Shown here one piece after another: positions 26,244 through 61,193 of a stretch of 61,871 nt of DNA; the stretch's first letter is position 1, and the number at the start of each line of letters is the position of its first letter. The stretch spans positions 1-61,871 of IMG/VR virus record IMGVR_UViG_3300025131_009312, one strand, 5' to 3'. The notes under the pieces are model-generated. The model worked only from the letters and a program-made list of their open reading frames with translations, did no database searches and was not told where the DNA came from. Source of the stretch: a virus. Position numbers and translations under genes: made by a program.

Positions 26244-27974
26244 ATGGCACTCACAGTCAAGGACATAGGGGAAATCTACGGCTCCCTCAACGAGATCTCG
26301 GCAAATCCAGGCCCCTCTGCGGATCGTCGAGCCACTACTACCACCGAAGCGCTCTCTCGTGCTCTGGCAGACATATATACACCCGACGCGCTAGCGGATA
26401 AAACAACATTTTTGGGAATCGTACTTATAAGTTATCCTACCAAATTGCCCAGACAGGGCTCAAAGCAGGAACTTCTCCACACACCAACCCCTATTGAGGG
26501 GAAGGATGGGGAGCCCGGACACCGACTCTATCCTTATTACGACGTCTATAAAGTTTACATTCCAGAGCTGGAACCAATTCCTTTAAATTGGGATGATCCA
26601 AATCCTTCGGACAACCAAATGACGTTGCAACAGAGGGTTATGACTTTTGACGATATTATCCCCAGCAATGAGATTTTGCGCGATCTCCCGGGCCCTATTC
26701 CCGCCGGAACAATTGTTGCGGTCCAGTATGAAGACTTGTCTCAATTAAAAAACCCGCGTATTGTTGGAGTTAATGGGGGCGGCCCCGCATTTGACATAGA
26801 CCTTCAAGCCGGAGCGACAGGTCTTAAGCACGCCTGGCAACGCGGTGGCATTGAAACTAGCTTGTCGGGATTTCCTTGGTCCGATAAAAAGCTTCAAAAG
26901 ACCGCCATATGGAAGTCTACCAAGGCCAAATATGCGGCCTGGAACGGCACAATTCTCAGGAATGGGGAAATACAGGACGTTCCTGGATTGCTGAAGGAGC
27001 ATCGAAAGAATGATAAGGTTCACTGTCAACTGCTAGCACCAGCCTACGAGGACTGGCAACTCTTAACGTCGGCGTATAAAAACAAGTTTGGAGAAGAGCT
27101 ACATGGAAGCGGTTATAGGACATGGGCGGGCCAGGTTGCCGTACGAATGGAACGAGTTAAAGGTGATCAGGCCTGTGCGGGCCATGGCAAATGCCGTGAT
27201 CTGGATGGCACAGGCTCGGGAGTGTGCGACAAAAACTGTAACAATATTGGATACGCAGCGGTCCCGGGCACTTCTAATCATGGCTGGGCAGCAGCAGTTG
27301 ATATCTACCCTGGCTGGGCGTTTCCATGTAGGTCAGCCCCGGGCGGCAGAGACCAGGCTGGCTGTGATAAGGCGGGCGGTGTAGCGCTTATGGGCTCAGC
27401 AGCCTTCGAAAAGTGGAAGTGGTTGAACAAGTTTGGCAAGAAATTCAATTTTGTTTTTAATGTCGATGGGGAACATTGGCATCTTGGTTGGATCGCGATC
27501 AGTGAAGTCGCACCAGCAATCGTGGTCAATCAGAACGCCTGGGACCCCACCGGAATCGACGAAGAACTCGAGTTCGGCCCTGGACCTGACGCAGCCCTCC
27601 TTGCCCGCGCCGGGGAGACCCCCGAGGAGGCTGAAGCAAATCGGGCAGCGGAAAATGAAGCCGCACGAAAGGCTAAGGAAGCCGAAGCCAAGGCCGCGGA
27701 AAAGGCCGCGGCAGACAAAGAGAATGAAGAATTCCAGGCCGAGTTCCGCGCGATGCAGGAGGAAAAGCGCCTTGATGCCAAGGCCTTGTGCCAGGAATCG
27801 GCATTTCTTAATGAAGATGGCACCTCACCGGACGACCTTGCATACCAGATAAACGACTGCAGAACAGTCCGCTACGCTAGGTGCAAAGACTTCACTCCAC
27901 ACCAAGGCGGCCCCACTGGCCCGACGATAGATGGCAGGATTATAGATTGTACTGAGTTCGGGAGGAGTACATAA
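26244..27974 (+). CDS. M15 (VanY-type) peptidase, probable baseplate/tail cell-wall hydrolase
   Basis: The 576-residue protein has a C-terminal-central M15 zinc peptidase: S344-x-H346-x-x-G-x-A...D353 in 'GTSNHGWAAAVDI' and E410-H-W-H413 in 'GEHWHLGW'. These are the metal and catalytic residues of D-Ala-D-Ala carboxypeptidases and phage endolysins of that type. Residues 1-200 look like a gp5-type OB/virion domain ('LPGPIPAGTIVAVQYEDLS'). A cysteine-rich stretch at about 311-335 ('CAGHGKC...VCDKNC') is inserted before the catalytic part. An Ala/Glu/Lys-rich coiled-coil segment (about 470-520) follows. It likely cuts peptidoglycan during infection. Confidence 0.8.
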   Translation: MALTVKDIGEIYGSLNEISANPGPSADRRATTTTEALSRALADIYTPDALADKTTFLGIVLISYPTKLPRQGSKQELLHTPTPIEGKDGEPGHRLYPYYDVYKVYIPELEPIPLNWDDPNPSDNQMTLQQRVMTFDDIIPSNEILRDLPGPIPAGTIVAVQYEDLSQLKNPRIVGVNGGGPAFDIDLQAGATGLKHAWQRGGIETSLSGFPWSDKKLQKTAIWKSTKAKYAAWNGTILRNGEIQDVPGLLKEHRKNDKVHCQLLAPAYEDWQLLTSAYKNKFGEELHGSGYRTWAGQVAVRMERVKGDQACAGHGKCRDLDGTGSGVCDKNCNNIGYAAVPGTSNHGWAAAVDIYPGWAFPCRSAPGGRDQAGCDKAGGVALMGSAAFEKWKWLNKFGKKFNFVFNVDGEHWHLGWIAISEVAPAIVVNQNAWDPTGIDEELEFGPGPDAALLARAGETPEEAEANRAAENEAARKAKEAEAKAAEKAAADKENEEFQAEFRAMQEEKRLDAKALCQESAFLNEDGTSPDDLAYQINDCRTVRYARCKDFTPHQGGPTGPTIDGRIIDCTEFGRST

Positions 27975-34358: not shown

Positions 34359-34760
34359 ATGTCATCAGGATTAGCGCCAAGATTGCCCCTGGAAGTGGAC
34401 GACACATTTGGGGCATACAATCTAATAACGGATTTTGAAACGCTAGCAAACCAGAATCTCAAAATGCTTTTGTTTACATCTCCTGGGGAGAAAGTAATGG
34501 ATGTAGAGTTTGGAGTTGGTGTGCGTCAATTTTTGTTTGAACCTAATCGGACCGATACGTATTCTCGGCTCGATAGCAAGATAAGGGAGCAGGTCAACAT
34601 GTATTTGCCTTTTATTGGAATCGAGCGTATTGATTTTATTGTACCAGAAGGAAATCCTGATCTGTTTCCCCACACGATTAACTTAAAGCTATACTACCAG
34701 ATAAAACCATTGAGTTCTTTTGGTATGCTGGAAGTTGATGTTGCGGGAGCGGGCGTCTAA
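34359..34760 (+). CDS. Baseplate wedge protein, GPW/gp25 family
   Basis: The 133-residue protein matches gp25-like proteins: 'NLITDFETLANQNLKMLLFT' followed by 'SPGEKVMDVEFGVGVRQFLF' (the P-G-E/S-R-x-x-x-x-x-G-x-G-x-x-x-x-L motif), then 'IREQVNMYLPFI'. gp25 forms the inner collar of the T4 baseplate wedge and is conserved across contractile-tail systems, so the phage almost certainly has a contractile tail. An AGAGG ribosome-binding site precedes ATG 34359. The gp6-like gene follows after 21 bases. Confidence 0.93.
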   Translation: MSSGLAPRLPLEVDDTFGAYNLITDFETLANQNLKMLLFTSPGEKVMDVEFGVGVRQFLFEPNRTDTYSRLDSKIREQVNMYLPFIGIERIDFIVPEGNPDLFPHTINLKLYYQIKPLSSFGMLEVDVAGAGV

Positions 34761-34781: not shown

Positions 34782-36575
34782 ATGCAGAAAAAAATAATAC
34801 CCATTAACTATACTAGCCGCGACTTCGAGTCCATCCGCCAAGAGCTGGAGAATTTCGCTCGTCGCTATTATCCCAACACTTATCAAGACTTTAATGAAGC
34901 CTCTTTCGGTTCCCTGATGTTAGATACCGTGGCGTATGTGGGAGACATCTTATCGTTTTACTTAGACTATCAGACTAACGAAAGCTTCCTAGATAGCGCT
35001 GTCGAGTATTCCAACGTTTTGCGACTAGCCCGGCAGCTGGGATATAAGCAAACAACTAGTCCTGCATCTTACGGCCTTTTAACTTTTTATATTGAGGTAC
35101 CTGCCGCAACCACGGGTCTCGGTCCCGACCCTGCTTTAACACCAATTTTAGAGGCCGGCTCCACCTTCAACTCGGTGGGTGGCGGTACCTATACCCTACT
35201 TGGCGATGTCGATTTTAATAATTCCGCTGTAGAAACGGTAGTGGGTCAAGTGAACCCACTTAACGGTCAGCCAACCACTTATGTTCTTAGACTGAAAGGA
35301 CGGGCCGTCTCGGGCCGCGGCAACGTTGCAACCATTCCCATGGGAGACTTTCAGAGATTTCAGGTGGTTAAGATACCAGCGCCAAATATCAGTGACGTTA
35401 TAAGAGTGTTGGATACGGACGGTAATGAGTACTATGAAGTAGACAATTTATCTCAGAACATAGTTTACAAAGCCATCCGGAATACTGGAGAAAACAGAAG
35501 AACAGTTCCAAATATTTTGAAGGCCGTTCCAGTGGCTCGTCGCTTCGCTCTCGAAACTATTAATGGAGAAACATATTTACAGTTTGGATATGGTTCTGCT
35601 AACAATAGGCTCACCAACCCGGTTGTCGACCCAACTGAGGTCATATTAGATCTTAATGGCCGAACCTACAGTACAGAGATTGACTTTGACCCGACCAGGC
35701 TCATAAGCACTGACAAATTTGGAATTGCGCCGGCGAATACTACCCTTACGGTAGAATATCGCTACAATACCACCACTGACGTAAATGCCGGCGTGGACAC
35801 TATAACCCAGATCGCCGACGCGCGCCTAAGGTTTAAATCACAGGGTTCCCTATCAACAGCCTCTCGTGCCACAGTTAGAAATTCACTAGAAGTCTCCAAT
35901 GAGCAGTCGTTTGTGGGGGACGTATCGCTACCTTCAACTGAAGAGGTGCGGCAGCGCACCTATAGTCATTTTGCCACTCAGAATCGAGCGGTAACTGGAC
36001 GCGACTATCAGGCTCTGTGCTACAGTATGCCACCCAAATATGGCATGATTAAGCGCGCAGCTGTTCTTAAGGATACTGACGAGTTCAAAAGGAATGTGAA
36101 TATTTTGGTCATCTCCGAGTCTTCGACCGGCAAATTAATCAAATCTAACGCAACTCTTAAGAATAATTTAAAAAATTGGTTACTTCACTATAAAATGATT
36201 AGTGATACAATTGATATTCTTGATCCTTTGATTGTGAACTATGCTGTGGAGTATGAAGTTATGACGGACCTGGGAGCAAATAGATTTGAGGTGATTAATC
36301 GCTGCACAGATGCACTGGCCTCCCAATTATCATTTGTGCAGGACATCGGCGAGAGACTTTCTCTTACCGAGATGTATAGAGTCCTCCAGAAAGTGGAGGG
36401 CGTGGTGGATGTGAGTTCGCTAGAAGTCAAACTCCGCTCGGGTAATCTCTATTCCGAGTCTAACTATAACTTTGAGGGCGCCCTTTCTGCCGATGGTAAG
36501 AACGTTTTAGCAGCTTCGAATGTTATATTTGAATTGAAATATCCAAACCTTGATTTAATTGGGTCAGTTCGATAA
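34782..36575 (+). CDS. Baseplate wedge protein gp6-like (BaseplateJ family)
   Basis: The 597-residue protein has the gp6 N-terminus 'INYTSRDFESIRQELENFAR', 'FNEASFGSLMLDTVAYVGD', 'LSFYLDYQTNESFLDSA', and 'RLARQLGYKQTTSPAS'. It also has the characteristic 'ATQNRAVTGRDYQALCYSMP' part in its C-terminal half. gp6 forms the wedge dimer that makes the baseplate ring in T4. It directly follows gp25 and ends in a TAATG overlap with the next gene. T4 gp6 is 660 residues. Confidence 0.93.
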   Translation: MQKKIIPINYTSRDFESIRQELENFARRYYPNTYQDFNEASFGSLMLDTVAYVGDILSFYLDYQTNESFLDSAVEYSNVLRLARQLGYKQTTSPASYGLLTFYIEVPAATTGLGPDPALTPILEAGSTFNSVGGGTYTLLGDVDFNNSAVETVVGQVNPLNGQPTTYVLRLKGRAVSGRGNVATIPMGDFQRFQVVKIPAPNISDVIRVLDTDGNEYYEVDNLSQNIVYKAIRNTGENRRTVPNILKAVPVARRFALETINGETYLQFGYGSANNRLTNPVVDPTEVILDLNGRTYSTEIDFDPTRLISTDKFGIAPANTTLTVEYRYNTTTDVNAGVDTITQIADARLRFKSQGSLSTASRATVRNSLEVSNEQSFVGDVSLPSTEEVRQRTYSHFATQNRAVTGRDYQALCYSMPPKYGMIKRAAVLKDTDEFKRNVNILVISESSTGKLIKSNATLKNNLKNWLLHYKMISDTIDILDPLIVNYAVEYEVMTDLGANRFEVINRCTDALASQLSFVQDIGERLSLTEMYRVLQKVEGVVDVSSLEVKLRSGNLYSESNYNFEGALSADGKNVLAASNVIFELKYPNLDLIGSVR

Positions 36576-38107
36576 TGGGACTTCTTCGTTATACAGCTAG
36601 CGCTGATACTACAATTACAAATGCTTACGAAGCCGGCCTGAGCACCCGGGGTACAGGCTCCAATATGGGCTATGCCGACGCCCTAGAGGTATTTTCGCTC
36701 TATGGGCAGTCCTCCGGTTCGGCTACTGGTCAATCTCAAGAACTTTCCCGTATTTTGGTAAAGTTCCCAATCAGTCAGATCTCTGCCGATCGCACCTCCG
36801 GCCAATTAGCGGCCTCGGGAAGTGTTTCCTTCTATCTCAAGATGTATAATGCCCGAACTCCCTGGACATTACCGCAAGACTTTAATTTGGTAGTGGCTCC
36901 GGTTTCCCGCTCGTGGGCCGAAGGATCAGGCTTGGATATGGATGAATATCAAGACTTGGGGGCATCTAACTGGATTAAATCCGACAACACCACCGACTGG
37001 ACGTCTATCGGTGGAGACTATCATACTGCTTCGAACTACAACGTACCTTTCGCCCTAGGATACGAAGATCTTGAATTAGATGTCAGTGATGTAATAGAAC
37101 AGTGGATCGCCGGCGACGACCCAGAGTTTGCCAATAACTATGGATTTGGTATTCGTCTTACTGCCAGCCAAGAGGCTTTTTTCTCTAGTTCAACAGGCCA
37201 AGATACCTCTGTATTAATTAATAATCCGGCCGGCGCAACCGAATCTTATTATACTAAACAGTTCTTTGCGCGCTCAACTGAGTTCTTCTTTAAGCGCCCC
37301 ACTTTGGAGGCGCGCTGGAACTCTAGCATCAAGGATAACAGAGAGAACTTTTACTACTCTAGCTCTTTGGCTCCGGCTGCTGACAATCTGAATACTTTAT
37401 ACTTTTATAACTATATCCGCGGCCGCCTTGTCGATATTCCCGGCAACCCGGCAATACGCGTCTCGTTGCTATCTGGTGCCACTGCACCATCCACAGGAAG
37501 CGCTGTGCAACTGTATGGAGAAAGCGGCGGTGACGGAACCACATCTCACTCAGCCTCCGCCGGCCGAGTATCCACCGGCCTATATTCCGCCTCGATGGCA
37601 GTGACAGCAGCCGCCTCTCCGCTAACGGTTCTGTATGACGTATGGTCTAGCGCTGCTGATACAGCCGTTCAATATTTTACTGGATCAATTTATCCCCAAA
37701 AGATGCCCACCTATATGGGCGCCCCTACATTTAACAGGGTAACGAACATTAAATATATGAAGAAATCATACTCCCCATTCGAAACAGCACGATTTAGACT
37801 GTTCGTTAGAGATAAAAATTGGAGCCCCACGATTTATACACGGGCGACTAGTATTAATCCGACGGACATTATTGAAAGCGGAGCGTTTTCAATCCGTCGC
37901 GTCATTGGTGACCTAAATGTGGTACCTTTCGGAACGGGGAGCGATCTTCATACTATGATGTCTTACGACGTCAGCGGCAACTATTTTGATTTGAATATGT
38001 CTCTTTTGGAAAGTGGCTACATGTACGAAATACATTTGGCGTACTATAATGATTCGATTTCTTCCTGGATAGAGCAACCCTACACCTTTAAATTTAGGGT
38101 AGATTGA
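36575..38107 (+). CDS. DNRLRE-like beta-rich tail/baseplate protein
   Basis: The 510-residue protein opens 'GLLRYTASADTTITNAYE', followed by 'NMGYADALEVFSLYG' and 'SRILVKFPIS', which resembles DNRLRE beta-sandwich domains (polymer D-T-x-I...G...L-L-K-F). Residues 1-235 are thus a likely carbohydrate- or protein-binding module. The rest is beta-rich with Ser/Thr/Gly-rich stretches ('SAVQLYGESGGDGTTSHSAS') and ends in a further sandwich-like part. It sits between gp6 and the 3668-residue giant, so it is probably part of the baseplate periphery. Function is inferred from fold resemblance. Confidence 0.62.
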   Translation: MGLLRYTASADTTITNAYEAGLSTRGTGSNMGYADALEVFSLYGQSSGSATGQSQELSRILVKFPISQISADRTSGQLAASGSVSFYLKMYNARTPWTLPQDFNLVVAPVSRSWAEGSGLDMDEYQDLGASNWIKSDNTTDWTSIGGDYHTASNYNVPFALGYEDLELDVSDVIEQWIAGDDPEFANNYGFGIRLTASQEAFFSSSTGQDTSVLINNPAGATESYYTKQFFARSTEFFFKRPTLEARWNSSIKDNRENFYYSSSLAPAADNLNTLYFYNYIRGRLVDIPGNPAIRVSLLSGATAPSTGSAVQLYGESGGDGTTSHSASAGRVSTGLYSASMAVTAAASPLTVLYDVWSSAADTAVQYFTGSIYPQKMPTYMGAPTFNRVTNIKYMKKSYSPFETARFRLFVRDKNWSPTIYTRATSINPTDIIESGAFSIRRVIGDLNVVPFGTGSDLHTMMSYDVSGNYFDLNMSLLESGYMYEIHLAYYNDSISSWIEQPYTFKFRVD

Positions 38108-38120: not shown

Positions 38121-41100
38121 ATGAGCTTTAAAACGTTATTCGATAAAGCTACGGCGGTCACCGCCTTAGCAAATAAGAATTCTAAACAGATCGGCGGAGA
38201 AGTTGAATCTCGTCAGTATCATACACAGGATATTATTCACGAAAAGCGGTTTATTCCTCGGATTGATTACTCTGATCCTAAGAATTTTGCTAGGTATGGT
38301 TCCGCAGAAGAGTATTATGCTCAATCGATTGGGAGAATCCTAGACAATTATCCTTATGACGGCTCACTTAAGGAAAGAATACAGTGGGAGAATGAGTCCA
38401 CATATGTAGACCTGCACATTCTCGATAATCTGTATCCCCGTACCAACGGCTTTATTCACCTATCTCAGGGCGGCTGGGGAACCGCGGCTTCGATTTCGAG
38501 TGACGGCTATGGCCTTCCCAATACTCTAGAATATATCTATCTAGAGGGCGGCCCTCACGGAAACCCAACCGGCCCGACTCCCTATGCTCAACAGTTTACT
38601 GGATCTAACTATTATGATCCTGATACCAACCGCGAGAGCAATTTAAAGTTCGACCTCCAAAATCAAGGCGCCACTATAGAGTTTTGGTTAAAGAAGGATG
38701 CCTGGGCTTCTTCTCTTACCACTAACGAAGTCTTGTTTGATATGGAGGCCAGCAATACTGGCACTGAGCAGAATCGCTTCCGGGTGGCTCTTAATTCGAC
38801 CAGCTCATCGCCGTTCTACATCACTGCGTTATCAGGCGGAGTTGGAATTACTGACGAAGCATTGGGTTCCTCTGTAACCATAGCAGATGGTTTATGGCAT
38901 CACTATGCGGTCACCTTAAAATCAGTCGCTGCTGGTATTCAAACAAAACTGTATATTGACGGGGGCCTGAACGTATCCTCGGTGCTCGGGTCTACTGGAA
39001 TTAACGAAGTGACAGGAGCGCTAGTGGCTACCGTTGGTTCCCTCGTTGCAGCAACGGCTGCCGGCGGAGCACAGTACGCAGGAAAACTCTCGGGATCTTT
39101 AGATGAATTGCGTTACTGGAAGACGCGTCGAACCGGTGAAAAGATCGGCCGCTATTGGTTTGACCAGGTGGGCGGCGGCACCAACACCGATCCGCAGGCC
39201 TTTACCGACACACAAGAAGAGGTAAACACAACCCTTGGTGTTTACTACAAATTTAACGAAGGCATCACCGGCGATACAAGTATCGATAGCACTGTGCTCG
39301 ACTACTCTGGCCGGGTTTCTAATGGAACCTGGACGGGGTATACAACCGAGTCCCGAGCCACCGGATCAGCCATTGTTATTTCCAAAGCAGCCATAAAAGA
39401 ATTCAAAGACCCCATCATTTACGGACAACACCCTGATGTCATAATGCTCCAGAGTAGTTTGCAGGTCACCGGCTCGAATCATGATACTGAAAATGCAGCC
39501 ATGGTTTACAAGAGTATTCCCGGCTGGATCACAGAAGATGACGAGGAAACCACCGGAAACCTCAAGAAACTTACTCAGATTATGGGCAGCTACTTTGACA
39601 CTCTCCAATTGCAGACTGAATCACTCAATCTGTTAAAAGATGTGGAGTATGTTTCTGGGAGTAATAAGCCTATACCGTTTGCAGATCGGCTTCTTAATTC
39701 TCACGGCCTAGTTGCACCCGAAATCTTTTTGGATGCAGATATTTTGGAGAAGTTGGCAGATCGCAGTGAAGACAAGCTCTACGAAAAGACTCTTAATGAT
39801 TTAAAGAACATTATTTATCAAAATATCTACAATAACCTGACCTATATTTATAAGTCTAAGGGAACTGAAAAGTCTTTTAGAAACCTTATTCGTTGTTTCG
39901 GCATTGATGATGAGTTGATAAAACTAAAATTATATGCGAAAAATACCCAGTATGAATTTAGGGAAAACCGGCGAACCCTCATACTCCCGACCAAGTATGT
40001 TAATTTTAATGCGACCAATGCTACCGAAGCCACTGTATTCGGCTTTAAAGATCCGTCGGGCAGCTACGAGAACACCACAGGCTATTTGACTTCTAGTGTT
40101 GAACTGACCGGAGGCTTTGCATACACGTTCGAAACAGATGTGTTTTTTCCTGAGAAAAAGGACATAACCAACCCTACATACGCGGATACCAATACGCTTT
40201 CTGCTTCGTTGTTTGGTATTCATGGCACTATAGGATCTGAGACCGATACTGCGTGGCCCGAAGTTGCGGGCTCTGTGGTTGACGACAAAGTTAATTTCCA
40301 GGTGTATGCGTGCCGTGATGAGTTAGACTCTAAAAATGTTAAGTTTGTATTAACCGGCACCCAAGGTGGTGTAGTTCCTCTTATGGAAAGCTCCTTATAT
40401 GAGGACACCTATTCAGATGTAACATGGAACTTATCAGTTCGGGTTAAACCAGAGCGATATCCATTGGCTGCCTTTTCGACAGGGGCTGACACTGGCGCTT
40501 ATACGATCGAATTGCACGGAATTAAAGTTCAAGCCGGAGAAATAACGGATAGTTTTAATATTTCTGATACCATTAGCGCAGCATCCAACCCCGACGGTGG
40601 ATTCATGACAGGCAGTAAGCGCCCCTATGTGGGAGCGCATCGTACCAACTTCACTGGTACTATACTCCAGCCTACCGATGTTAGAATTGAAGCCTCGCGA
40701 TTCTGGGTGAATTATGTTGAAGACGAAGCACTCCGCGCGCACGCCTTAGATTCCGAGAACCATGGTGCGTTTCAGCCACACCAATATGCATACCCATTTG
40801 CTAGTGATGGTCATTATGGAGACGTTGTTGAGTTTGATACCCTGGCCTTTAATTGGGAGTTCAGCCAAAATACGGGCTCGAACGCTTTAGGTCAGATGGT
40901 GGTGGCAGATGAATCTTCGGGTTCCAATGTTACAACGGCGTATCAGGGCCTAGGAGAACTACTCAACAAACAGTATACCGCCCTAGGGTATGGATTCCCT
41001 CAGTCTTCGACCGAGCCAATTGTTAAGGACTTTGTCGTTATCTCACGCCTAAATGACGTTGAGACCATCGGCCCCGCCGAAACTATTAATGTCTTAAGCG

Positions 41101-44100
41101 CCCAAGATCAGCACGTTTTCAAGATCGACTCGCGCCCTATTAATTATTATTTCTCTTTTGAAAAAAGTATGTATAACACCATCAGTGAAGAAATGGTCAA
41201 TTATTTTGGAACATTAAAAGATTTTAATACTCTTGTTGGTGCCCCAGTCAATCGCTATCGTCCTGATTATAAACAACTGGCCTTTTTAAAGCAAAAGTTT
41301 TTTGAGAACGTTGCCAATGATGAGATAGACTTTGATAAGTTTTATGAGTTATACAAATGGTTTGACTCTACCCTGTCATTCCTGTTAGGCCAGCTCGTCC
41401 CGGCCTCCGCCGATTTTGCGGATAATATTCGAACCATGGTGGAAAGCCACGCTTTGGAGAGAAACAAGTATAATAATATTTTGCCCTTTGTCGACAAGGA
41501 AAACACGGTTTTTGAAGCAACTATGTCGAGCAGTGTAGACTACGGTGATGCTATTTCATCCCCGGACGATGAGCCCCAAGGAACCGGGTTTTATCCTGCG
41601 CATGCCCCTACCAAGCGCGCAACTGGGTTGTCGAACCGCGGTATGGTTAAAAAGTGGAAATATGTACACGCCCCGGTTTCCGACGACCCGACTGAAAAAT
41701 ATCTCTGGTGGAAGAACAAGGCAGAGCGTAACACACCAACCATTGATGTCCCAGCCGGTGTACTTACCAGTAGGGCCCAAATTTTGCGATCTATTAGGAT
41801 GGCAGACCAACGCGAAGAAGGAAAGCCTTACCGATTTAACGTTGCCGGTTCATACGACCTACAGGGTGTGGGTACAGGTTATAACTTTAAGCCCTATATG
41901 CTATATCCGTCGATTGCTCCATTTGGTGGAAACGCAGCAGGCACAAATGCCCCAAGAGATATAGCCTTTATTAGTGGAAGTACAGTGGAGACGCTCCTGA
42001 ATACCACGGACGAGTTTTACCCAACATACAAGCAGCGCCTAGGCTTCGCTGTTGATCTAGACAAGAATAAAAATGATAGCATCGCGGACCCCGAACCTGG
42101 AGGTCACATCGCTCCGTTTAGTCTTTATAACGCTACACTGACCAACACTCCATCATCTTTCCGACCCAATACCGCCATTACTAATTTGCATCACGATTAC
42201 GTCGCTGACAATTCTATTCCAGCCCAAGGGCCGTTTACGGAGAAATATGTCGGAGGTCGCCGATTCAGGCACGTAGAACTTAATACCGGAACAGATACTG
42301 CTTTAACTCGACCAGAAGGTTTCAAGTTACAGTTCTCTGAGGTCTCTTCCTCGGCCGGAGGCAAGTTTTCTGGTTCACTGGCAATCTTGCCCCCTAATTC
42401 TACGGGCTTGATCACCCGTGCCGAAATCCCCACAGCGCAACGATTAAGAGATGAGACCGCAAAGCGCCCTGTAAACATCAAGAACATCTTTATGACGACG
42501 GCTTCTGCCGGAGAGCGCCTGAGCAATATTGCCACACATGGTAAAATAGGAAATTACCAGAAGAACTATCAAGTTATTCAAACATCGGGCCGCTCACAGA
42601 ACGATCCATACTTTGTCGAGCAGTCTTTTAACTTTGCCCTCAACCCCCAGAATCCTTACCCAAGAAGTACATTTAATAATCGTTTCCCTCTGCAGAACCC
42701 TTTGAGCGCCACCCAAGCCTCGGGCGAAACTCTTCGGGTTGCAAATACGAAGGCCATTGTACTCTGGGACGGCCCTAACATACACTATCAGTTTACAGCC
42801 CCAGCCGGCCTGAATTCAAATGAGGCTGAAACTATCGCTTTCTGGGTGAAGGCAGACTCCTCCGACCTAGGCGGCTACATCATTTACAATGCTGATGGTG
42901 GTACTCGAAGACTTGTCACCATCGAGGCCACGGGCCAAGTTGCTTTCTTGGTCGGCCTCGCCAGTGGCAACCACACTTGGATCACTAACGACTCAGCTAC
43001 AGCCGGCGACGAATGGATACATATAGCAATTTCTTATGATGCATCCTCGGATGCGACAACGCCGAACATCTATGTTAATGGTACCGCTGTGGCTATATAC
43101 GAATCCGGCACACCCGGTTCAGGCGATCCTGATGACTGGAGTAGCACTGTTTTAGTTGGTAACACTACCAGCGTAAACTTTCAGGGTTATATTTCGGACA
43201 TGGCTTTTTGGAATACTGCGCTAGACGCCCCAACGATTGCAAGCCTCTATGCGCGCTCAACTGCTAATTTGATTAACGCTTCATGGGTTGCATCCCCCCT
43301 CATGTGGTACCGCTGCGGTAATGGTGCTACGGACACCGCCGCCACCATTGTGGATCAAATGGGCACCGCCAATTTGACGTCAACCTCGGGTCTCAAGGAA
43401 ATTGTTGATATACCTCCCGGAAGTTGTCTTGGAACGTCCCTAGATAATTTTGCACTCCCTAATCGCGACGGCATAAATTCAAATCAGACGGTTTTTGTAA
43501 ACCACTTTAGCGCGCCCGGGGGTTACAAGACCCTTTCCCGTGGTTATCTCGACCCAGCCCACGAAGAACTTTCAGTCTATAATGCGCTTCCTTATCGAAA
43601 CCGAGGCGTGATTGATTACGGCTTATCTGGCTCCGCGTCGGCTGATCCCTCTATTGCTCAAGCAGAGCATGTTGTCGGTCAGCTTCTTCGCACGCGCGGC
43701 CTTAACCAGCGCGCTTCACTTCATTGCGGACAGTATGGCATCGATGCGGCTTATGGATCCATAACTGCGCAGAGCACTCGTGTCGACGGTGGCACGGGAT
43801 ATTCGTCTACTCCTTCGTGGCACAAGACCAATCGGAACACATTACGGCGAATGGAGTCCGGCTCCACAGGGTATGCTGCAGCTTCCACCTATGACAACTT
43901 GTATGTACAGCACCAGATCCCTCAGTCGGCACAGCAATATGCGTGGATCACCGCGTCTCTCGCACCCGGAGAATCCATCATGGTCCTCCAGCCGCCTACG
44001 TGTATCTCTGCTTCTTCCTTAACCCAACTCCTGACCGCGAGCGCTGTAGGTTATAGTCGGTACTGGTCATATAATTCTGCTCTGATGTATGGGGCCACAG

Positions 44101-47100
44101 GCCGCGGCGGATTTAATGCAAGTTCACAAGGACTTCAGTTCCTCCCAGTAGATTTTCTCGGCCTGTCAACTATTGTTGTCGACCCTGTGAGTGCCTCTAC
44201 TCATACGCTTGGGTACTCTCTAGATCTTCCGCTCTACACTAAACTAACTACTTACTACGCCAAGTCAGACTATATTAATCCTTCTACCATGCCGCCCCAG
44301 GCTTTCGCGGCGGGCGGCAATATAATTACCAACCTCGCCAATGGTGCCCCAGGCCATGCAAGTATTTTAAACTCTATTCTGCTTAACCGTAACGGACCAT
44401 ACGGATATCCTACGTGGAAGCAGATTCGTACTGGCGAAACGCGTACTGCGCGTGCGCTCCGTCGCCAAAATAAAATAGGCACAGTTAAAGTTCCCCCCCT
44501 CGTAAAAAATGTAGTAGCGTCCACCGGCGTAGAACTAGGGTTTGTGAGAGCCAAACAACCTGTTGGTTTTGTTGACTTTGTGGAACAGCCTTTAAGTAGT
44601 CGTTATTCGCCTATCTTCGTGGCCACAGAGGATAACACAGCGAACTCAAACGTTAGAAATAACATTCAACTTAATGTTGCTTATGGAAATCGATTTGACA
44701 ATTTCTCTAACGAGGGACTCAACAATCTGCTGAATATCCCGCCACCGGACATCTACAACAACCCGTTTACCAATATCGCTGACTCCATTGTGCGTAGCCA
44801 GTTGAGTACTATGATGATTTATTCCGAAAGAATTTATCCGGCTGAAATAAATGCATACAAAAATATAGTTCGCAACAGAACCACATTTACCATCTCAAAT
44901 GTTTGGAACGCCGATAGAGGAGTCCGCAGCGCCACGCAGACTCGATCCAACTCCCAAGGAGATATAGTTGACTACCAGAGTATATGGGCTTTAGACCCGC
45001 AATTAAATTTCTCAACAGTGGCCCCTGCTTTAAGCAATATAACGGACGGATCCGGTGAACTGCAAAATATGTATAATCGTTTCGGGGTTCAGTCTACGGG
45101 CTATACTGATGGCTCGATAACAGCCAGCGCTATATATGCATCCCGGGTCCCTGTGGGCTATAGCGAAGGTGCTACATCAAGCGCGAATCTGGTTTATGGA
45201 GGTGCTGCATCTTTTGTCACTCCGATGGACGCCGACAAGATGCCATATGAGCGCTATGAGGATTGGGTCCAGCATCTGCGCCTGATCGGCAAGGATTATT
45301 CTATAGTTCCGGAATTCCGCCTGAGTGAGTTGATGGAGACTTATCTCGAAACTTATGATGGCAATTTCTTGGCTGAAGTTACGGGCGCCTTAACATTAAC
45401 GGGATCCTCGGCCGAAATTTCCAATAACCAAGAGCAGTTTTACAAGACTTATACTAATGCAGATTTCATGAAGTATTTTGAGGTGGTGGATAATATGCTG
45501 GACAACCAGCGCTCTGGCGACTTAAAAATACAGAGAGAGAAGTTGGCCCTGAGATGCACAGCCTTGTTGAAGTTTTTGCCTTATAAGGGCTTCTATCCTT
45601 CAGAACGTATTATGGAGTTGGCTAGCCTTTTCTCCAGCTCGTATGGCGATAATTTTGAAACCATCGCCGCGGCAGCCGATGGGTCTACAACCACCAATCC
45701 TACAACCTATAGAGCTATTGTGGAGCCACTTTTTGCACCAGGAATCTGGTTTAACAGTGTAAAATCTGGAGTGGGTGTGGGAAGTTGGGTCACTGTCAAT
45801 ACCGCGCCAGACAGCGTGTCATCTCAAGATGACATTAGCAGATCCGGCCAGCAGAAGGATGCTGGTATTACTGTTTTACCGGAGGGGTCTGTATGCTATG
45901 GTCAAGGCAGTCTGTTCTCAGCATCACTTTCTCGTAACGCCAATACCTATCATTTAGAGCGCGTCCCCTTTGAGGCCTCATATCGACCTGAGGAATTCCT
46001 CAGTCAAAAGTCTGTGACGGGTTCCTATATTTGGGATAGTGGGATGGGGACTGCCAGCCTCGCCTTTAATAATGGAAATAAATATACCAAGAATAGGGTA
46101 AAATGGAACGGCGCCGGCAAGGATCTCTATCGTTTAGCGGCCGATAACTTTTTATGTGAAACGACAAACTTTTTCATGGATGACATGGTAAGTTTTATCT
46201 CCAGCCCAGAAAACCAGTTTTCCGAAAAAACTCAAGAAGGGGAGGTTTTCGCCCTAACTCTTAATTTCAATCGGCCGATGACTCGACAGCTTGGAATTAC
46301 TGCCGGCGGCGACCCCGATCGAACCCGTTTTGAGTTGTATAATCGAGCCTCGGCCTTCGGGTCGCCATTTATTTTGGATGAGGGTTATCCGATGACCACC
46401 ACAGGTGAGACAGCCTCTGGCTCAATTGAACTTACCAGTAGCCTTGTTTCATCGGGCATCCAGGCCCAGGGTTATATTGAGTTAACCGGTGCGATGGTTG
46501 GCGGAGTAGCTGCTTCGGGTAATATTAAGGTGGATTCCTGGGCCGACAATATTACTGGCCAGGGCATCCGCTTATATAACGCCGAGGGCACTGAATACTA
46601 TACTTACACCTTTAGTTCAACCAGTCCCACTAGTGCGGATACAATAAATACCACCAACTCAAATTCCGACCAGCTCAAGGAAATCCAATTGGCCGTTGAA
46701 CTATCCGCTTGGGATGGGACAACCCGGATCAACACAGTTGACATTACCGTGCTCGAATTGACTCAGAGCGCCACGGGCACAGCCGGCAACACCGCTATTG
46801 GCGAAGATGGGGGCGGTTTAAGCTCAACTGACTTCATCAATGGCGCCAACGCCACAGGGTGGTCCATTACCACCGGCGACAGGTGGACAATTAGCGATGG
46901 TGGCACCAACTCCTACAACTACCTACAGCCCGGTACCGTCCGTACAGCAACGTTCGCAGCCACTAGCTCGGGAGACCCATGCGCTTATGATGGATGTTTC
47001 GAAATTGTTAACACGGGGGATGCAAACGCTGACATTTTGGCCACCATACAGAGTTTCTACGACACAGTTAATACATACCAAGCCGCCAACCCAGACTATA

Positions 47101-49127
47101 AAGTAACGTCTTCAACCATCAGTACCGCGGAGGGCGCGACCGACGTCGGCGTTGTATATTTTAGGAACTGTCATACTGGCGCCTATGGTAACGTGGGAAT
47201 AATTGCCACTACCAGTTCCAACGGAGACTACTACCAAAGGGTGGCTGGAATGGGCTCGGCGACTGGCGTCGGCCCCGGCGCACAACAGAGGGCGCCCTCT
47301 GTTGCTGGTGTGGACCCAGTTTACACGCTAGCGGACCAGGATCGATTTGTTATTAGTGACGGCGCCTGCGATGGCGCCCTGCAGTGGATCCCATTCTATT
47401 TAACCGGTGCGGTGAGCGGATCCACAGCCTGGAATTCAGCAGTGGCATCTACTCCATTTGCAGAGTTGACTGCTTCTGATGCCCAGTCGACCGCCACTAA
47501 CCTTGTAAATGCCATCAATGCCATGGCAAACTACGGCACCTTCCCAATGACAGCCCAATTAGCAGCAGGTGGGAGCCCATCGGCCGCCAACGCTCGAATT
47601 GATATTGTAAACGATGATGACGGCGCGTGCGGCAACCAAGCCATTACTAGTGTTCTATCCTCCGAAGCCTCTGGTTATATAAACATCCTCGGCCTCGCCG
47701 GCGGGAATGATAGCTTTGACACTACTGAATACACTGCATCTTTGGCTCCCAATCTACCTTCTTACTTCTATGGTACTAGCTCGGTCACCATTATTACTAG
47801 CGCTTCATACGGCGGCCGGCAAACAATTGGAGAGTTGTTTGGTAATGCCGAGTATATCTATGACCGGTCCTATGAAACAGGAGACTTTGATACTGCAGCA
47901 GTTGGATACTGGTTTGCTCAACAGGTCTCTGAGAGTGTAAACTTAAATGAGGTTTTCGCTGAAGGCCGCTCTTTCCGGTGGGCAATCCAAAGCAAATTCG
48001 AAACACCAGTGCTAAATTTTGCAGATATATCGCCCCCTCGTCCTGCCGCGGCCCTCTATCCTGTAAAGGCAGGGTGCGACGCAGACATCACCAGCAAAGG
48101 TATGTGGCATCAGTATGGAACAGATTTCTCTAAGGGTGATGGCATTTATTTGAATATTACTACCCCCAAACTAGTAGATTCTACCCGATATGGTACGGTA
48201 CATAATCCCTCATCATTAGCCCAGATGGTTGGTTTTGAAGAGGGAGTAAATAAAGAAATTGGCCAAGTGAGGTCTAATCAAGCACTGGAAGAGGCTGTGG
48301 TGGCAGTGCCCTTTGTGGTAAAAGCAAACCGTAGACAGTTTATAAGCTTTCCCCGTAAACGTCCGGCATCTTATGCTAGGCTTGAGGCAGCCATGGACAA
48401 ATATATTTTCCCACCGAAGTTTGATTTCCTCCAGTTTGATTCCGTCAAACCGATAATCATGTATGTTTTCGAATTTAGCATGGATTTGAAAAAGAAGGAT
48501 CTCACCGACATGTGGCAAAACCTGGCCCCTGGTGGAACAACGCCGAAAATGGCAGTAGATGAGGTAATAATTGAAGACAAGAAATTGATCAACAAAATGT
48601 TGACGGATAATGAGAATCTCCAATGGATGGTATTTAAAGTGAAGAGACGCGCCACGAAGGACTTTGAAATTCAGCGTAGGTTACAATTGGTCGATTCCAC
48701 TAACCAAATTACTCCCTCTATCGGGCATTATACATACAATTGGCCTTATGACTATTTCTCCTTAGTCGAGTTGGTAAAGATGGACGAATCAGTACAGTAC
48801 GCATCAACGGATATTATTGTTGCAGATGGTGAACCTATCGCGACCGCTGAGGCGGCGTCAGGACGCACGAGGCTCCCAACCTCTATCTCGGCTCGTGAAC
48901 TCACCGCCGGCGCCACTGGTACCCCCATAGCGGGCGTCACAGAGGGCTCCTTCGATGTCGCGACCCCAATCGTTCCCGTAAATCTAGTCGACCCCGATAC
49001 TGTGGGCGCCCAAAAGAGCGATACAAAGACTCAAAGATCTACAAAGAGCACCGTGAAAAAGTCTTCCGCGAAGACAGTCAAAAAGCAAAAGAGAAGTTAT
49101 AGCACCAAAAGTAGGTCTAAGAAGTAA
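38121..49127 (+). CDS. Giant virion protein (3668 residues) with two LamG-like domains
   Basis: One uninterrupted 11-kb frame. The N-terminal 130 residues are polar. Residues about 170-345 form a laminin-G/concanavalin-like fold ('ATIEFWLKKD...DGLWHHYAVTL...KLYIDGG'), and a second lies at about 1553-1718 ('ETIAFWVKADSS...WIHIAISYDA...NIYVNGTAV'). Residues about 430-1200 contain helical stretches ('LTQIMGSYFDTLQLQTESLN'). About 2770-3200 holds three short A-x-G-x-I-E-L-T repeats and three larger repeats ending in 'T/D-x-x-G-x-x-G-N-x-x-I'. The last 40 residues are Lys/Ser-rich. It occupies the place where T4-like phages carry gp7, suggesting a giant baseplate/fibre protein. Host-glycan binding by LamG is possible. 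Confidence 0.8.
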   Translation: MSFKTLFDKATAVTALANKNSKQIGGEVESRQYHTQDIIHEKRFIPRIDYSDPKNFARYGSAEEYYAQSIGRILDNYPYDGSLKERIQWENESTYVDLHILDNLYPRTNGFIHLSQGGWGTAASISSDGYGLPNTLEYIYLEGGPHGNPTGPTPYAQQFTGSNYYDPDTNRESNLKFDLQNQGATIEFWLKKDAWASSLTTNEVLFDMEASNTGTEQNRFRVALNSTSSSPFYITALSGGVGITDEALGSSVTIADGLWHHYAVTLKSVAAGIQTKLYIDGGLNVSSVLGSTGINEVTGALVATVGSLVAATAAGGAQYAGKLSGSLDELRYWKTRRTGEKIGRYWFDQVGGGTNTDPQAFTDTQEEVNTTLGVYYKFNEGITGDTSIDSTVLDYSGRVSNGTWTGYTTESRATGSAIVISKAAIKEFKDPIIYGQHPDVIMLQSSLQVTGSNHDTENAAMVYKSIPGWITEDDEETTGNLKKLTQIMGSYFDTLQLQTESLNLLKDVEYVSGSNKPIPFADRLLNSHGLVAPEIFLDADILEKLADRSEDKLYEKTLNDLKNIIYQNIYNNLTYIYKSKGTEKSFRNLIRCFGIDDELIKLKLYAKNTQYEFRENRRTLILPTKYVNFNATNATEATVFGFKDPSGSYENTTGYLTSSVELTGGFAYTFETDVFFPEKKDITNPTYADTNTLSASLFGIHGTIGSETDTAWPEVAGSVVDDKVNFQVYACRDELDSKNVKFVLTGTQGGVVPLMESSLYEDTYSDVTWNLSVRVKPERYPLAAFSTGADTGAYTIELHGIKVQAGEITDSFNISDTISAASNPDGGFMTGSKRPYVGAHRTNFTGTILQPTDVRIEASRFWVNYVEDEALRAHALDSENHGAFQPHQYAYPFASDGHYGDVVEFDTLAFNWEFSQNTGSNALGQMVVADESSGSNVTTAYQGLGELLNKQYTALGYGFPQSSTEPIVKDFVVISRLNDVETIGPAETINVLSAQDQHVFKIDSRPINYYFSFEKSMYNTISEEMVNYFGTLKDFNTLVGAPVNRYRPDYKQLAFLKQKFFENVANDEIDFDKFYELYKWFDSTLSFLLGQLVPASADFADNIRTMVESHALERNKYNNILPFVDKENTVFEATMSSSVDYGDAISSPDDEPQGTGFYPAHAPTKRATGLSNRGMVKKWKYVHAPVSDDPTEKYLWWKNKAERNTPTIDVPAGVLTSRAQILRSIRMADQREEGKPYRFNVAGSYDLQGVGTGYNFKPYMLYPSIAPFGGNAAGTNAPRDIAFISGSTVETLLNTTDEFYPTYKQRLGFAVDLDKNKNDSIADPEPGGHIAPFSLYNATLTNTPSSFRPNTAITNLHHDYVADNSIPAQGPFTEKYVGGRRFRHVELNTGTDTALTRPEGFKLQFSEVSSSAGGKFSGSLAILPPNSTGLITRAEIPTAQRLRDETAKRPVNIKNIFMTTASAGERLSNIATHGKIGNYQKNYQVIQTSGRSQNDPYFVEQSFNFALNPQNPYPRSTFNNRFPLQNPLSATQASGETLRVANTKAIVLWDGPNIHYQFTAPAGLNSNEAETIAFWVKADSSDLGGYIIYNADGGTRRLVTIEATGQVAFLVGLASGNHTWITNDSATAGDEWIHIAISYDASSDATTPNIYVNGTAVAIYESGTPGSGDPDDWSSTVLVGNTTSVNFQGYISDMAFWNTALDAPTIASLYARSTANLINASWVASPLMWYRCGNGATDTAATIVDQMGTANLTSTSGLKEIVDIPPGSCLGTSLDNFALPNRDGINSNQTVFVNHFSAPGGYKTLSRGYLDPAHEELSVYNALPYRNRGVIDYGLSGSASADPSIAQAEHVVGQLLRTRGLNQRASLHCGQYGIDAAYGSITAQSTRVDGGTGYSSTPSWHKTNRNTLRRMESGSTGYAAASTYDNLYVQHQIPQSAQQYAWITASLAPGESIMVLQPPTCISASSLTQLLTASAVGYSRYWSYNSALMYGATGRGGFNASSQGLQFLPVDFLGLSTIVVDPVSASTHTLGYSLDLPLYTKLTTYYAKSDYINPSTMPPQAFAAGGNIITNLANGAPGHASILNSILLNRNGPYGYPTWKQIRTGETRTARALRRQNKIGTVKVPPLVKNVVASTGVELGFVRAKQPVGFVDFVEQPLSSRYSPIFVATEDNTANSNVRNNIQLNVAYGNRFDNFSNEGLNNLLNIPPPDIYNNPFTNIADSIVRSQLSTMMIYSERIYPAEINAYKNIVRNRTTFTISNVWNADRGVRSATQTRSNSQGDIVDYQSIWALDPQLNFSTVAPALSNITDGSGELQNMYNRFGVQSTGYTDGSITASAIYASRVPVGYSEGATSSANLVYGGAASFVTPMDADKMPYERYEDWVQHLRLIGKDYSIVPEFRLSELMETYLETYDGNFLAEVTGALTLTGSSAEISNNQEQFYKTYTNADFMKYFEVVDNMLDNQRSGDLKIQREKLALRCTALLKFLPYKGFYPSERIMELASLFSSSYGDNFETIAAAADGSTTTNPTTYRAIVEPLFAPGIWFNSVKSGVGVGSWVTVNTAPDSVSSQDDISRSGQQKDAGITVLPEGSVCYGQGSLFSASLSRNANTYHLERVPFEASYRPEEFLSQKSVTGSYIWDSGMGTASLAFNNGNKYTKNRVKWNGAGKDLYRLAADNFLCETTNFFMDDMVSFISSPENQFSEKTQEGEVFALTLNFNRPMTRQLGITAGGDPDRTRFELYNRASAFGSPFILDEGYPMTTTGETASGSIELTSSLVSSGIQAQGYIELTGAMVGGVAASGNIKVDSWADNITGQGIRLYNAEGTEYYTYTFSSTSPTSADTINTTNSNSDQLKEIQLAVELSAWDGTTRINTVDITVLELTQSATGTAGNTAIGEDGGGLSSTDFINGANATGWSITTGDRWTISDGGTNSYNYLQPGTVRTATFAATSSGDPCAYDGCFEIVNTGDANADILATIQSFYDTVNTYQAANPDYKVTSSTISTAEGATDVGVVYFRNCHTGAYGNVGIIATTSSNGDYYQRVAGMGSATGVGPGAQQRAPSVAGVDPVYTLADQDRFVISDGACDGALQWIPFYLTGAVSGSTAWNSAVASTPFAELTASDAQSTATNLVNAINAMANYGTFPMTAQLAAGGSPSAANARIDIVNDDDGACGNQAITSVLSSEASGYINILGLAGGNDSFDTTEYTASLAPNLPSYFYGTSSVTIITSASYGGRQTIGELFGNAEYIYDRSYETGDFDTAAVGYWFAQQVSESVNLNEVFAEGRSFRWAIQSKFETPVLNFADISPPRPAAALYPVKAGCDADITSKGMWHQYGTDFSKGDGIYLNITTPKLVDSTRYGTVHNPSSLAQMVGFEEGVNKEIGQVRSNQALEEAVVAVPFVVKANRRQFISFPRKRPASYARLEAAMDKYIFPPKFDFLQFDSVKPIIMYVFEFSMDLKKKDLTDMWQNLAPGGTTPKMAVDEVIIEDKKLINKMLTDNENLQWMVFKVKRRATKDFEIQRRLQLVDSTNQITPSIGHYTYNWPYDYFSLVELVKMDESVQYASTDIIVADGEPIATAEAASGRTRLPTSISARELTAGATGTPIAGVTEGSFDVATPIVPVNLVDPDTVGAQKSDTKTQRSTKSTVKKSSAKTVKKQKRSYSTKSRSKK
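46403..47730 (+). repeat. Tandem divergent repeats inside the giant virion protein
   Basis: Within the 3668-residue protein, three short units of about 16 residues with the pattern A-x-G-x-I-x-L-T-x-x-x-V-x-x-x (starting near 'ASGSIELTSSLV', 'AQGYIELTGAMV', 'ASGNIKVDSW') are followed by three larger units of about 85-130 residues. Each large unit starts with a strand such as 'DRWTISDGG' or 'DRFVISDGA', passes a helical or strand part, and ends in a shared signature: 'ATGTAGNTAIG', 'HTGAYGNVGIIAT', 'DDGACGNQAITSV'. They are divergent in DNA sequence, so the duplications are old. Confidence 0.6.
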
Positions 49128-58799: not shown

Positions 58800-59897
58800 A
58801 TGGCTACTACATTTAAAATATTAACCCAAAAAGACGTTGTTTCTACACGAAACCTTCTTCACGAGTCCATTCCCATAACAGGAACAATAGTTTCCGGAAC
58901 ATACGATGAACCACCGGCAGGTGGCGGCTTGGGGAGCAGTAACATCAAAAATTATTCTCATGGACTTTTTCAGTCAGTTTATGACTATTCTGCTCTCAGT
59001 TCTTCTGCGAACCATATTTTTGACCTCACGGCCGGGTACTCTAATTCCTCGGCACTCTCTGCTTCTTCTAATACCCAAAATGCTAAAAAGATCAACATCT
59101 ATAACGAGATGGCCCAGGTCCTTGTGGGATTTGACGAAAACAACGATTTGCGTAGATTTGACGAAGATGGTGACTTTGTCAATACAGCCACGAAGATTGA
59201 TGATGCATATTTTATTAACTTGACTCGCCTTTTAACCAAGGACGAGGTGAAGAAAGGAAGCTTTACGTTGGAACTTGGGGTTTCCCATATCCATAATAAT
59301 GCCAATACGGCTAGCGTCCTTCTACAGGATAGCGATGGAAATACCTCTTACAAGGTAAACTCCCCCGCCGGCGAGTATGGCATTTTATATGCCACCAATG
59401 GCAGTGGGACAGAGTTAATCGATAATGGCACTCCATGGAAGGCCGGGTTACTTTACTATCAAGCCGGCATCGCTGTCGTAACCGCATCGCTTTTTGAATC
59501 TACTACCACCGGTGGAATGCTTTCTGGTTCCTGTAAAATGGACGAGGGCGGCAACGATATCGACCAGTCCCTTACGGGCTCCTCGATTTCTGGCAACTGT
59601 GATAACTTCCGAAATCGTATGCGCGATCTTTCGTTTAATAACACGACCGAACTTAATTCTACTGTATACTTCTGTCGGGCCAACCATAACGAGTTTAATT
59701 ACTCCGCCAACCCAACGTACTTGAGTGCCAGTAAACTGGTTGTGAAGAATAACTCATCAGATATTCCGGTTTCTTATGCTACCACTGTCGGGCTTTACTC
59801 GCCAGACAATGAGTTGCTTGCGGTTGCAAAGGTTTCAGAGCCTCTTAAGAAGGATCCTACTAACGAGTTTACACTACGAGTCCGACTAGATTACTAA
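58800..59897 (+). CDS. Virion protein, paralog A
   Basis: The 365-residue protein is beta-rich with a middle part 'VKKGSFTLELGV' and a C-terminal part from about residue 290 onward that ends 'VGLYSPDNELLAVAKVS' then 'EFTLRVRLDY'. The same design recurs in the next gene ('IKKGTVKLDIYY', 'VGIYDKNKNLIAVAKPA', 'DFTFKLKLDI'), so the two are paralogs sharing a C-terminal domain. The N-terminus ('MATTFKILTQKDVVSTRNLL') is different. Possibly a baseplate or whisker/fibre component. Confidence 0.68.
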   Translation: MATTFKILTQKDVVSTRNLLHESIPITGTIVSGTYDEPPAGGGLGSSNIKNYSHGLFQSVYDYSALSSSANHIFDLTAGYSNSSALSASSNTQNAKKINIYNEMAQVLVGFDENNDLRRFDEDGDFVNTATKIDDAYFINLTRLLTKDEVKKGSFTLELGVSHIHNNANTASVLLQDSDGNTSYKVNSPAGEYGILYATNGSGTELIDNGTPWKAGLLYYQAGIAVVTASLFESTTTGGMLSGSCKMDEGGNDIDQSLTGSSISGNCDNFRNRMRDLSFNNTTELNSTVYFCRANHNEFNYSANPTYLSASKLVVKNNSSDIPVSYATTVGLYSPDNELLAVAKVSEPLKKDPTNEFTLRVRLDY

Positions 59898-59909: not shown

Positions 59910-61193
59910 ATGGCTTATTATAGATTTACACGAAATGAAAAGTTCGTCAACACTTTAAAGCTCTATCCAGAACTAAAGTTTACAATCTATAATGGCTCTG
60001 CTTATTATAATGACATTCCGAACTTTGCCGGCTCCTTTACGGGTTCTATTGTTTCGCCTCAAGGTTCCCTAAGTCTATACGAACTCAACGTCGACCGTGC
60101 TGAGGTTCCAATCACAGACACTACACCCGTAGGTACAGATCAGATTGAGAATAACGGGCTGATCCGCCCTTGGATCGTCAAAGATGGTAGCCGGATGAAT
60201 TTCCGAACATCTACCTCTGAGGCGTTCGTCGGGACTGATATTGGCGAGGTAATCATGGGGTCTTATCCCTTGACAGCTTCTATTTCCAAAGAATATTACG
60301 GCACCACAACTACCCGATCCGAGGCCGCCCAAATTAATACGGATAATAATGGACTCCTAACCATCGATAGTGTCGGGTACGTGACCCATCTACGCGCTCT
60401 CAAAAACACTATTAATTATTACGAGTATTTATCTCCGCAGTTTCAATATTCTTCTACTCCTGATATGATCTCCGCAGGAATCCATAATAGAAATTTTGAC
60501 ACTAATGAATTGGGCCTTGTGTCAATACCTAGTATGTTCTATGGTAACCAAATTAAGAAGGGAACTGTTAAGCTAGACATTTATTATACTGGGTCTTTGG
60601 TCGCTACTGCCGAGGACACCCGAAGAAATGGCGAACTAATAGAAACCTACAATGCATACGCAGGCTTCACAGGATCCTGCGTGGGCCTCGTACTTTATAA
60701 CGAAGGCTTTTTAATCCTTACGGGTGCCTCAGATCTTAATGGACAAACTGAAGTGTATGTAACGGGCGAGTCTGCCGATAATCCTAAGTGGGTCTATTTT
60801 GCACAATCCATCTCCGGCTCGGTTACCGCTCCTAATACTACCTTTACAATGGCCATGAGTGGTACGACAAATACTCAGGTGATGACAATGTTTGCGACTG
60901 CTCCAAAGGGCCAGCTTAATCACTCTAATAACCCTTCCTATTTGAAGAGCGTAACAAAGAGAGATGTTTCAACAGGCTCCTATGGTTACATTGAGGGCGA
61001 AGAAATGCGTATTAAAAATATTGTCAGTTCGTCGTATAATACACCTACAGGATCTTTTGAGAAAATGACGTATATCTCCAAAGTGGGAATCTATGATAAG
61101 AATAAAAACCTTATTGCTGTCGCAAAGCCGGCTACTCCCATCAAGAAATCTATCAATAAAGATTTTACTTTTAAATTGAAGTTAGACATTTAA
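59910..61193 (+). CDS. Virion protein, paralog B
   Basis: The 427-residue protein starts 'MAYYRFTRNEKFVNTLKLYP' and has a beta-rich body. Its middle ('IKKGTVKLDI', 'GLVLYNEGFLILTGA') and C-terminus ('VGIYDKNKNLIAVAKPA', 'DFTFKLKLDI') correspond to those of the preceding protein, showing an old duplication. It is about 60 residues longer, mostly in its N-terminal half. A GTG start of the next gene follows its stop codon directly. No enzyme motif; probably a tail/fibre subunit. Confidence 0.68.
   Translation: MAYYRFTRNEKFVNTLKLYPELKFTIYNGSAYYNDIPNFAGSFTGSIVSPQGSLSLYELNVDRAEVPITDTTPVGTDQIENNGLIRPWIVKDGSRMNFRTSTSEAFVGTDIGEVIMGSYPLTASISKEYYGTTTTRSEAAQINTDNNGLLTIDSVGYVTHLRALKNTINYYEYLSPQFQYSSTPDMISAGIHNRNFDTNELGLVSIPSMFYGNQIKKGTVKLDIYYTGSLVATAEDTRRNGELIETYNAYAGFTGSCVGLVLYNEGFLILTGASDLNGQTEVYVTGESADNPKWVYFAQSISGSVTAPNTTFTMAMSGTTNTQVMTMFATAPKGQLNHSNNPSYLKSVTKRDVSTGSYGYIEGEEMRIKNIVSSSYNTPTGSFEKMTYISKVGIYDKNKNLIAVAKPATPIKKSINKDFTFKLKLDI

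Follow-up and report, generated by a model that had tools for sequence, protein, structure and literature searches.

A 3,668-residue LamG-bearing viral protein as a probable gp7-like wedge subunit of a contractile-tail baseplate

The viral DNA analysed here, a stretch of 61,871 nucleotides that we call the window, carries a frame of 11 kb close behind a gp25-gp6 gene pair. Wedge subunits of the gp7 type rank with the best-conserved components of contractile tails, and in phage T4 the gene for the baseplate wedge protein gp7 (1,032 amino acids) adjoins gp6. The locus raises the question whether its giant product is a fibre or arm reaching for the host surface, as the sequence-only reading had proposed, or a subunit of the baseplate wedge itself.

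The giant frame and its gene neighbourhood

The frame opens with an ATG and runs without internal stop to its stop codon (38121-49127, plus strand), encoding 3,668 amino acids in one piece as the sequence-only reading had it. With relatives of its first 960 residues encoded in 423 IMG/VR stretches, the giant represents a widespread family, and because hundreds of relatives keep the frame open its length is far beyond chance. The source samples of these relatives are probably mostly marine. The genes that matter for the assignment are:

34359..34760, + strand, gp25-like baseplate wedge protein or sheath initiator, 133 amino acids (PHROG 261, E 8.9e-12)
34782..36575, + strand, gp6-like baseplate wedge subunit, 597 amino acids (PHROG 219, E 2.2e-22)
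36575..38107, + strand, virion-block protein of 510 amino acids between gp6 and the giant (from its slot)
38121..49127, + strand, giant protein, 3,668 amino acids (open reading frame)

The PHROGs matches confirm the upstream gp25-gp6 pair. The giant gene is thus encoded beside gp25 and gp6, as expected of a wedge subunit, and its proposed gp7 position is supported, with the 510-residue gene intervening after gp6. The same order, gp25, gp6, an intermediate slot and then the giant gene or a more compact one, is kept in Flavobacterium phage immuto and Microcystis phage Mel-JY01, where two further genes stand between gp6 and the compact one. The gp6-like protein aligns over its full length with its immuto and Mel-JY01 counterparts (29-32% identity), and the 510-residue protein is 26-29% identical to the Mel-JY01 gene product of the corresponding slot; Pfam and PHROGs gave no match for the latter protein. 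A DNA-level search with the window found no relatives among named phages. The large frame given earlier as 975 residues measures 977 amino acids from its first start codon.

Domain architecture and family

The features of the giant protein, with the evidence for each in brackets, are as follows:

38505..39377, + strand, LamG1, residues ~129-419 (Pfam LamG_3, family profile, predicted model)
39426..39950, + strand, putative wedge core segment 1, residues 436-610 (profile alignment to the immuto type, conservation)
39984..41048, + strand, cryptic LamG/concanavalin-like sandwich, residues 622-976 (predicted model)
41073..41477, + strand, putative wedge core segment 2, residues 985-1119, terminating in 'WFDSTLSFLLGQLVPASADFADNIRTMVESHALERNK' (profile alignment to the immuto type)
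42687..43421, + strand, optional insert with LamG2, residues 1523-1767, domain at 1565-1712 (relatives, family profile)
43422..46379, + strand, C-terminal chassis part 1, residues 1768-2753 (conserved in 27 relatives)
46380..47738, + strand, window-only insert of 453 amino acids, residues 2754-3206 (in 0 of 27 complete relatives)
47739..48863, + strand, C-terminal chassis part 2, residues 3207-3581 (alignment)
48864..49127, + strand, variable Lys/Arg/Ser-rich C-terminal tail, residues 3582-3668 (sequence, low occupancy)

The two LamG-like segments noticed earlier are borne out by Pfam, in which Laminin_G_3 (PF13385) matches two stretches of the giant above its curated cut-off (89.5 bits against 27.6; whole-protein E 3.2e-25); a LamG profile of the family places the domains at residues 179-345 and 1565-1712. 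Structure modelling, which had been suggested together with the claim, adds a third sandwich. The model of residues 1-1190 (mean pLDDT 49, mostly 60-87 in the strands of 622-976) shows LamG1 and, between the two core segments, a sandwich at about 622-976 that Pfam and sequence searches miss. In VIA comparisons, the LamG1 model superimposes on pentraxins with Z 15.3 (178 aa, 3.1 Å) and the cryptic sandwich on a PAPP-A chain with Z 14.4 (215 aa, 3.9 Å). Neither Pfam nor PHROGs matched any fibre or receptor-binding family (trimeric stalk, beta-helix, tip domain) in the giant; PHROGs returned nothing for the giant and nothing clear for the core.

The 28 complete non-redundant members of the family have 2,782-4,019 amino acids (median 3,133), and one further member, completed from its contig, reaches 4,325 amino acids with five LamG domains. 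Common to the 28 complete members is a chassis of about 2,750 amino acids, corresponding to window residues 1-1522, 1764-1978, 2007-2051, 2073-2753 and 3207-3581. It is interrupted at about five insertion sites, near residues 1188, 1390, 1526-1767, 1912-1922 and 2033-2070. C-terminal chassis part 1 is 35-59% identical per 100-residue block among 27 relatives, and its residues 2280-2753 gave just chance matches to HCN channels among PDB sequences (E at least 0.08). Part 2 contains, near the C-terminus, the motif 'YNWPYDYFSLVEL' (48735-48773), which is near-invariant in all aligned giants; this part, motif included, has no match in the PDB, Pfam or phage proteins.

Both inserts are richer in GC (0.518 and 0.530) than the flanking parts (0.459-0.480). 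The LamG2 insert (0.518, compared with 0.459 for residues 1-1522) is missing from about half of the homologues. The window-only insert (GC3 0.541) has weak internal repeats and several Cys residues, and no relatives of it were found in IMG/VR or phages; the closest relative of the giant (L003, 96%) ends before residue 2754. A perfect 22-bp palindrome, CAACAGAGGGCGCCCTCTGTTG, lies in the coding sequence of this insert at 47283-47304.

Relatives in the public sets of predicted structures are mostly uncharacterised proteins, and the literature searched holds no description of this giant protein family. Matches of any strength to the giant among named-phage proteins were to immuto (residues 438-609, 25% identity) and Mel-JY01, both in the core; two Synechococcus phages gave weak LamG matches at the protein level. 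Two homologues are broken by frameshifts (L029 around 19390; L044 around 15500-16950). Introns or inteins were considered and rejected for these breaks, which look like single frameshifts and are probably sequencing errors, of a kind that would hide the protein from automatic annotation. A Flavobacteriales MAG contig with a relative (L087) was rejected as a host clue, being 4 kb and too short.

The conserved core and its counterparts

The best-conserved blocks of the whole giant, by identity to relatives, are residues 501-600 (78%) and 1001-1100 (69%), one in each core segment. Segment 1 begins with helices followed by the 'YKSKGTEKSFRNLIRCFGID' stretch, and the core contains the pattern "KGT...GI ... 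PA". When the profile of 85 giants was aligned with that of 64 immuto-type sequences, two segments of the window protein matched, residues 435-609 (E 8e-16) and about 939-1123 (E 3e-10). Residues 622-976, between the segments, fall in a span that is missing from the immuto type. With the Mel type the alignment runs across both core segments (E 1.3e-18). The compact proteins concerned, immuto gp109 (1,265 aa) and Mel-JY01 WWT39511.1 (1,336 aa), are both annotated as hypothetical. Like the giant they occupy the slot after gp25 and gp6 and align in both core segments, and the Mel-JY01 protein has residues spanning the sandwich slot. They differ in having about one third of its length, another N-terminus and no C-terminal chassis, and the LamG profile gave no match in them. 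Since both phages are in culture, immuto on Flavobacterium sp. LMO8, the core assignment is directly testable there.

Several comparisons connect this core with wedge subunits of the gp7/gpI type. The arrangement 'KGTEKSFRNLIRCFGI ... strand ... helix ... PA' resembles 'KGTIGAIRRVVEPLGY ... KPASRH' of P2 gpI, and the KGT regions of P2 gpI and of the core are in register. In hhalign, the KGT stretch of gpI fell on that of the family as the top match in all three subfamilies (E 0.0015-0.026, compared with 0.36-0.86 for reversed controls; scores 24.0-33.1 against 11-16 for reversed profiles). The gpI comparison is not decisive on its own, because the unrelated 510-residue window protein, used as a negative control, scored 24.2 over 21 residues. 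Weak matches to TIGR02242 ('phage tail protein domain') occur in 23 of 90 members and to Tail_P2_I in 6 of 90, and a Mel-type frame in the record of L124 matches Tail_P2_I with E 0.0014; the window giant has no Tail_P2_I match even at E 10. The curated Pfam and NCBIfam cut-offs of these two models are not reached by the giant, and the relatives stay below them, so we do not file the giant as a member of PF09684 but speak of a gp7-like counterpart. A search of PDB sequences with the core gave nothing.

The core of the giant itself was modelled poorly (pLDDT 22-50), and the fold comparison therefore rests on the immuto homologue, for which an AlphaFold model from 90 sequences reached pLDDT 69. 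It has helices at 11-36 and 47-75, followed by helices and strands at 193-197, 250-258 and 344-349. Among 350,542 PDB chains, its top three Foldseek matches, weak at E 0.16-2.2, come from the baseplates of cyanophage A-1(L), a Streptomyces contractile injection system and P1; the VIA list adds those of phiKZ, T4 and phi812, and the VIA scores overall lie at Z 3.8-5.4. The best match in both programs, 8kea_c (Z 5.4, 117 aa, 4.3 Å), is 'wedge protein gp32' of A-1(L), whose wedges are (gp31)2-gp32 heterotrimers (PMC10966104). The T4 match covers residues 702-896 of 5iv5_BJ (94 aa, 3.8 Å, Z 3.8); 5iv5 contains gp7, as checked by sequence, and chain BJ is assigned to gp7 from its 1,004 resolved residues.

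Each of these scores is weak, but the gene position, the motif, the curated models and several independent structures all point the same way, which makes it likely that the core is of the gp7/gpI wedge type. The sequence-only reading had named a full alignment of segments to known gp7 as the outcome that would speak against it. What was found is a correspondence of about 300 of the 3,668 residues, or about 8% of the giant. T4 gp7 has no significant sequence match to it, also when used as a single sequence against the profile of the giants, and is 3.5 times shorter; we know of no LamG modules in T4 gp7. The other counterparts of the giant are minimal, at ~180-240 amino acids for A-1(L) gp32 (about 190) and the P2 gpI/pyocin PA0619 type. 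Each wedge of XM1, T4 and the type VI secretion system (T6SS) is built from a (gp6)2-gp7 type trimer; its gp7 counterpart measures 242 amino acids in XM1 and 1,032 in T4, and flexible parts of the XM1 protein bind the spikes (PMC10457771; PMC6300606).

LamG modules and the probable place of the giant in the baseplate

According to the family LamG profile, LamG1 (~179-345) is found in all 28 complete members, whereas zero to four further LamG domains per member occur at the five or so insertion sites. A tree of 49 LamG domains places all 28 LamG1 copies in one clade (support 100/100) and, judged from these sequences, LamG1 is the resident domain of the family. The LamG domains of site 1526-1570 do not form one clade, and their grouping was rejected (AU p 0.0006); several long branches make single placements unsure. 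That the extra domains do not group by site points to acquired or exchanged modules, and gain or exchange between sites would be the simplest reading of the tree. The LamG2 span is 24-37% identical among relatives, as compared with 50-78% across much of the N-terminal chassis. Lectin-like modules thus appear to have been inserted into a wedge-type protein at several points, giving modular growth. Insertions are also seen in some members of the compact type, where segments of 120-252 residues interrupt the protein at two different points. In two of these compact proteins (L340 and L328) an insert of 120 amino acids in the core has a weak CBM35-like match, with E 0.001-0.003 and below the cut-off. 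Modules of carbohydrate-binding type may enter this kind of subunit repeatedly.

Taken together, we consider it probable that the giant is a gp7/gpI-type wedge subunit of a contractile-tail baseplate that has become very large through inserted lectin-like modules. By analogy with XM1, A-1(L), T6SS and T4, each of six wedges would be a bundle of this core (~436-610 and 985-1119), two copies of gp6 and gp25. A collar of domains for glycan or protein binding would then face outwards, made up of LamG1 ahead of the core, the sandwich within the core and the optional LamG domains that follow at fixed sites. With about two to six sandwiches per subunit, six copies would place a dozen or more around the tail tip. 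Domains that meet host-surface glycans or fibres could shift the wedge directly: as sensor and scaffold would be united in one chain, surface contact would pass straight to the wedge. Turnover of modules at the insertion sites may tune binding specificity, as the mosaic pattern leads us to infer. A wedge subunit and LamG modules are each known; what is new is the size, the insertion into the core and the modular exchange, with Laminin_G_3/pentraxin-like domains sitting inside a wedge-type protein. Judging from this arrangement, domains that touch the host may be borne by the very protein that builds the structural core of the tail tip.

The earlier proposal of a fibre or baseplate arm holds in so far as gene order and core alignments argue for a baseplate part with a wedge-like core, probably facing the host; a free-standing fibre has become less likely. 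A giant fibre or receptor-binding arm on the baseplate, for which gp7 would have to be absent or lie at another locus, would account for the LamG folds, the great length, the fibre-like mosaic of optional domains and a C-terminal half of no known fold. We hold it to be quite improbable, as the best-conserved part is a compact core next to gp6 and not a tip or stalk domain, no other open reading frame of the window has the wedge core, and separate fibre-like genes lie further downstream (58800-59897 and 59910-61193). Another possibility is that the giant is a virion protein cleaved, in the manner of a polyprotein, into mature wedge, LamG and C-terminal pieces. Length and mosaic architecture would fit, but one frame is kept in the 28 complete relatives and each of the two broken copies looks like the result of one frameshift error, which leaves little probability for this idea.

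A variant of the wedge reading, compatible with its structural half, concerns the partner of the LamG domains. LamG folds often bind proteins, and those of the giant could bind other virion parts such as fibres or phage-made glycans, or act as spacers, and not touch the host. The window has a cluster of sugar-nucleotide and glycosyltransferase genes at 1.9-24.3 kb that would suit such a role, and A-1(L) gp32 anchors the long tail fibre through its own C-terminal loop (PMC10966104). We find this variant unlikely, since for optional and divergent modules a fixed partner in the virion is less plausible than an external target that changes; the low conservation in the LamG2 span likewise suits an external partner that changes. 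On our reading, the LamG domains of the probable wedge subunit may bind glycans.

A further-reaching proposal, which we put forward tentatively and regard as doubtful, makes the wedge scaffold the main adsorption surface. Six gp7-like proteins, each of an estimated ~390 kDa, would present a swappable lectin array, and host range would shift by LamG cassettes moving among fixed core loops and not by changes at a fibre tip. Should the wedge assignment be true, hundreds of viral contigs would encode such a subunit, enlarged to 3,700-4,300 residues and bearing lectin-like modules at set positions. This would account for much of the 'unknown' content of virion blocks, and new host specificity might then arise by domain insertion into a scaffold as well as by fibre swapping.

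Some other genes of the window deserve mention. The sugar-gene cluster (1937-24334) is large and includes GT1, GT2 and GT10 glycosyltransferases, a UDP-glucose/GDP-mannose dehydrogenase, two epimerase/dehydratases and an RpiB domain together with a nucleotidyl transferase domain; its products may modify a surface glycan or the virion of the phage itself. Shortly 5' of the virion block, a late sigma factor-like protein is encoded at 25258-25956; immuto and Mel-JY01 have its conserved counterpart a few kb ahead of gp6. A virion-block protein of 576 amino acids (26244-27974) has a VanY-type D-Ala-D-Ala carboxypeptidase domain and is a possible peptidoglycan enzyme of the tail tip. The proteins encoded at 58800-59897 and 59910-61193 have C-terminal ends in common with a row of proteins encoded downstream in Mel-JY01 and immuto, annotated in part as tail proteins and in part as hypothetical; in their sequences they behave like a fibre series, as if one fibre-end cassette had been reused.
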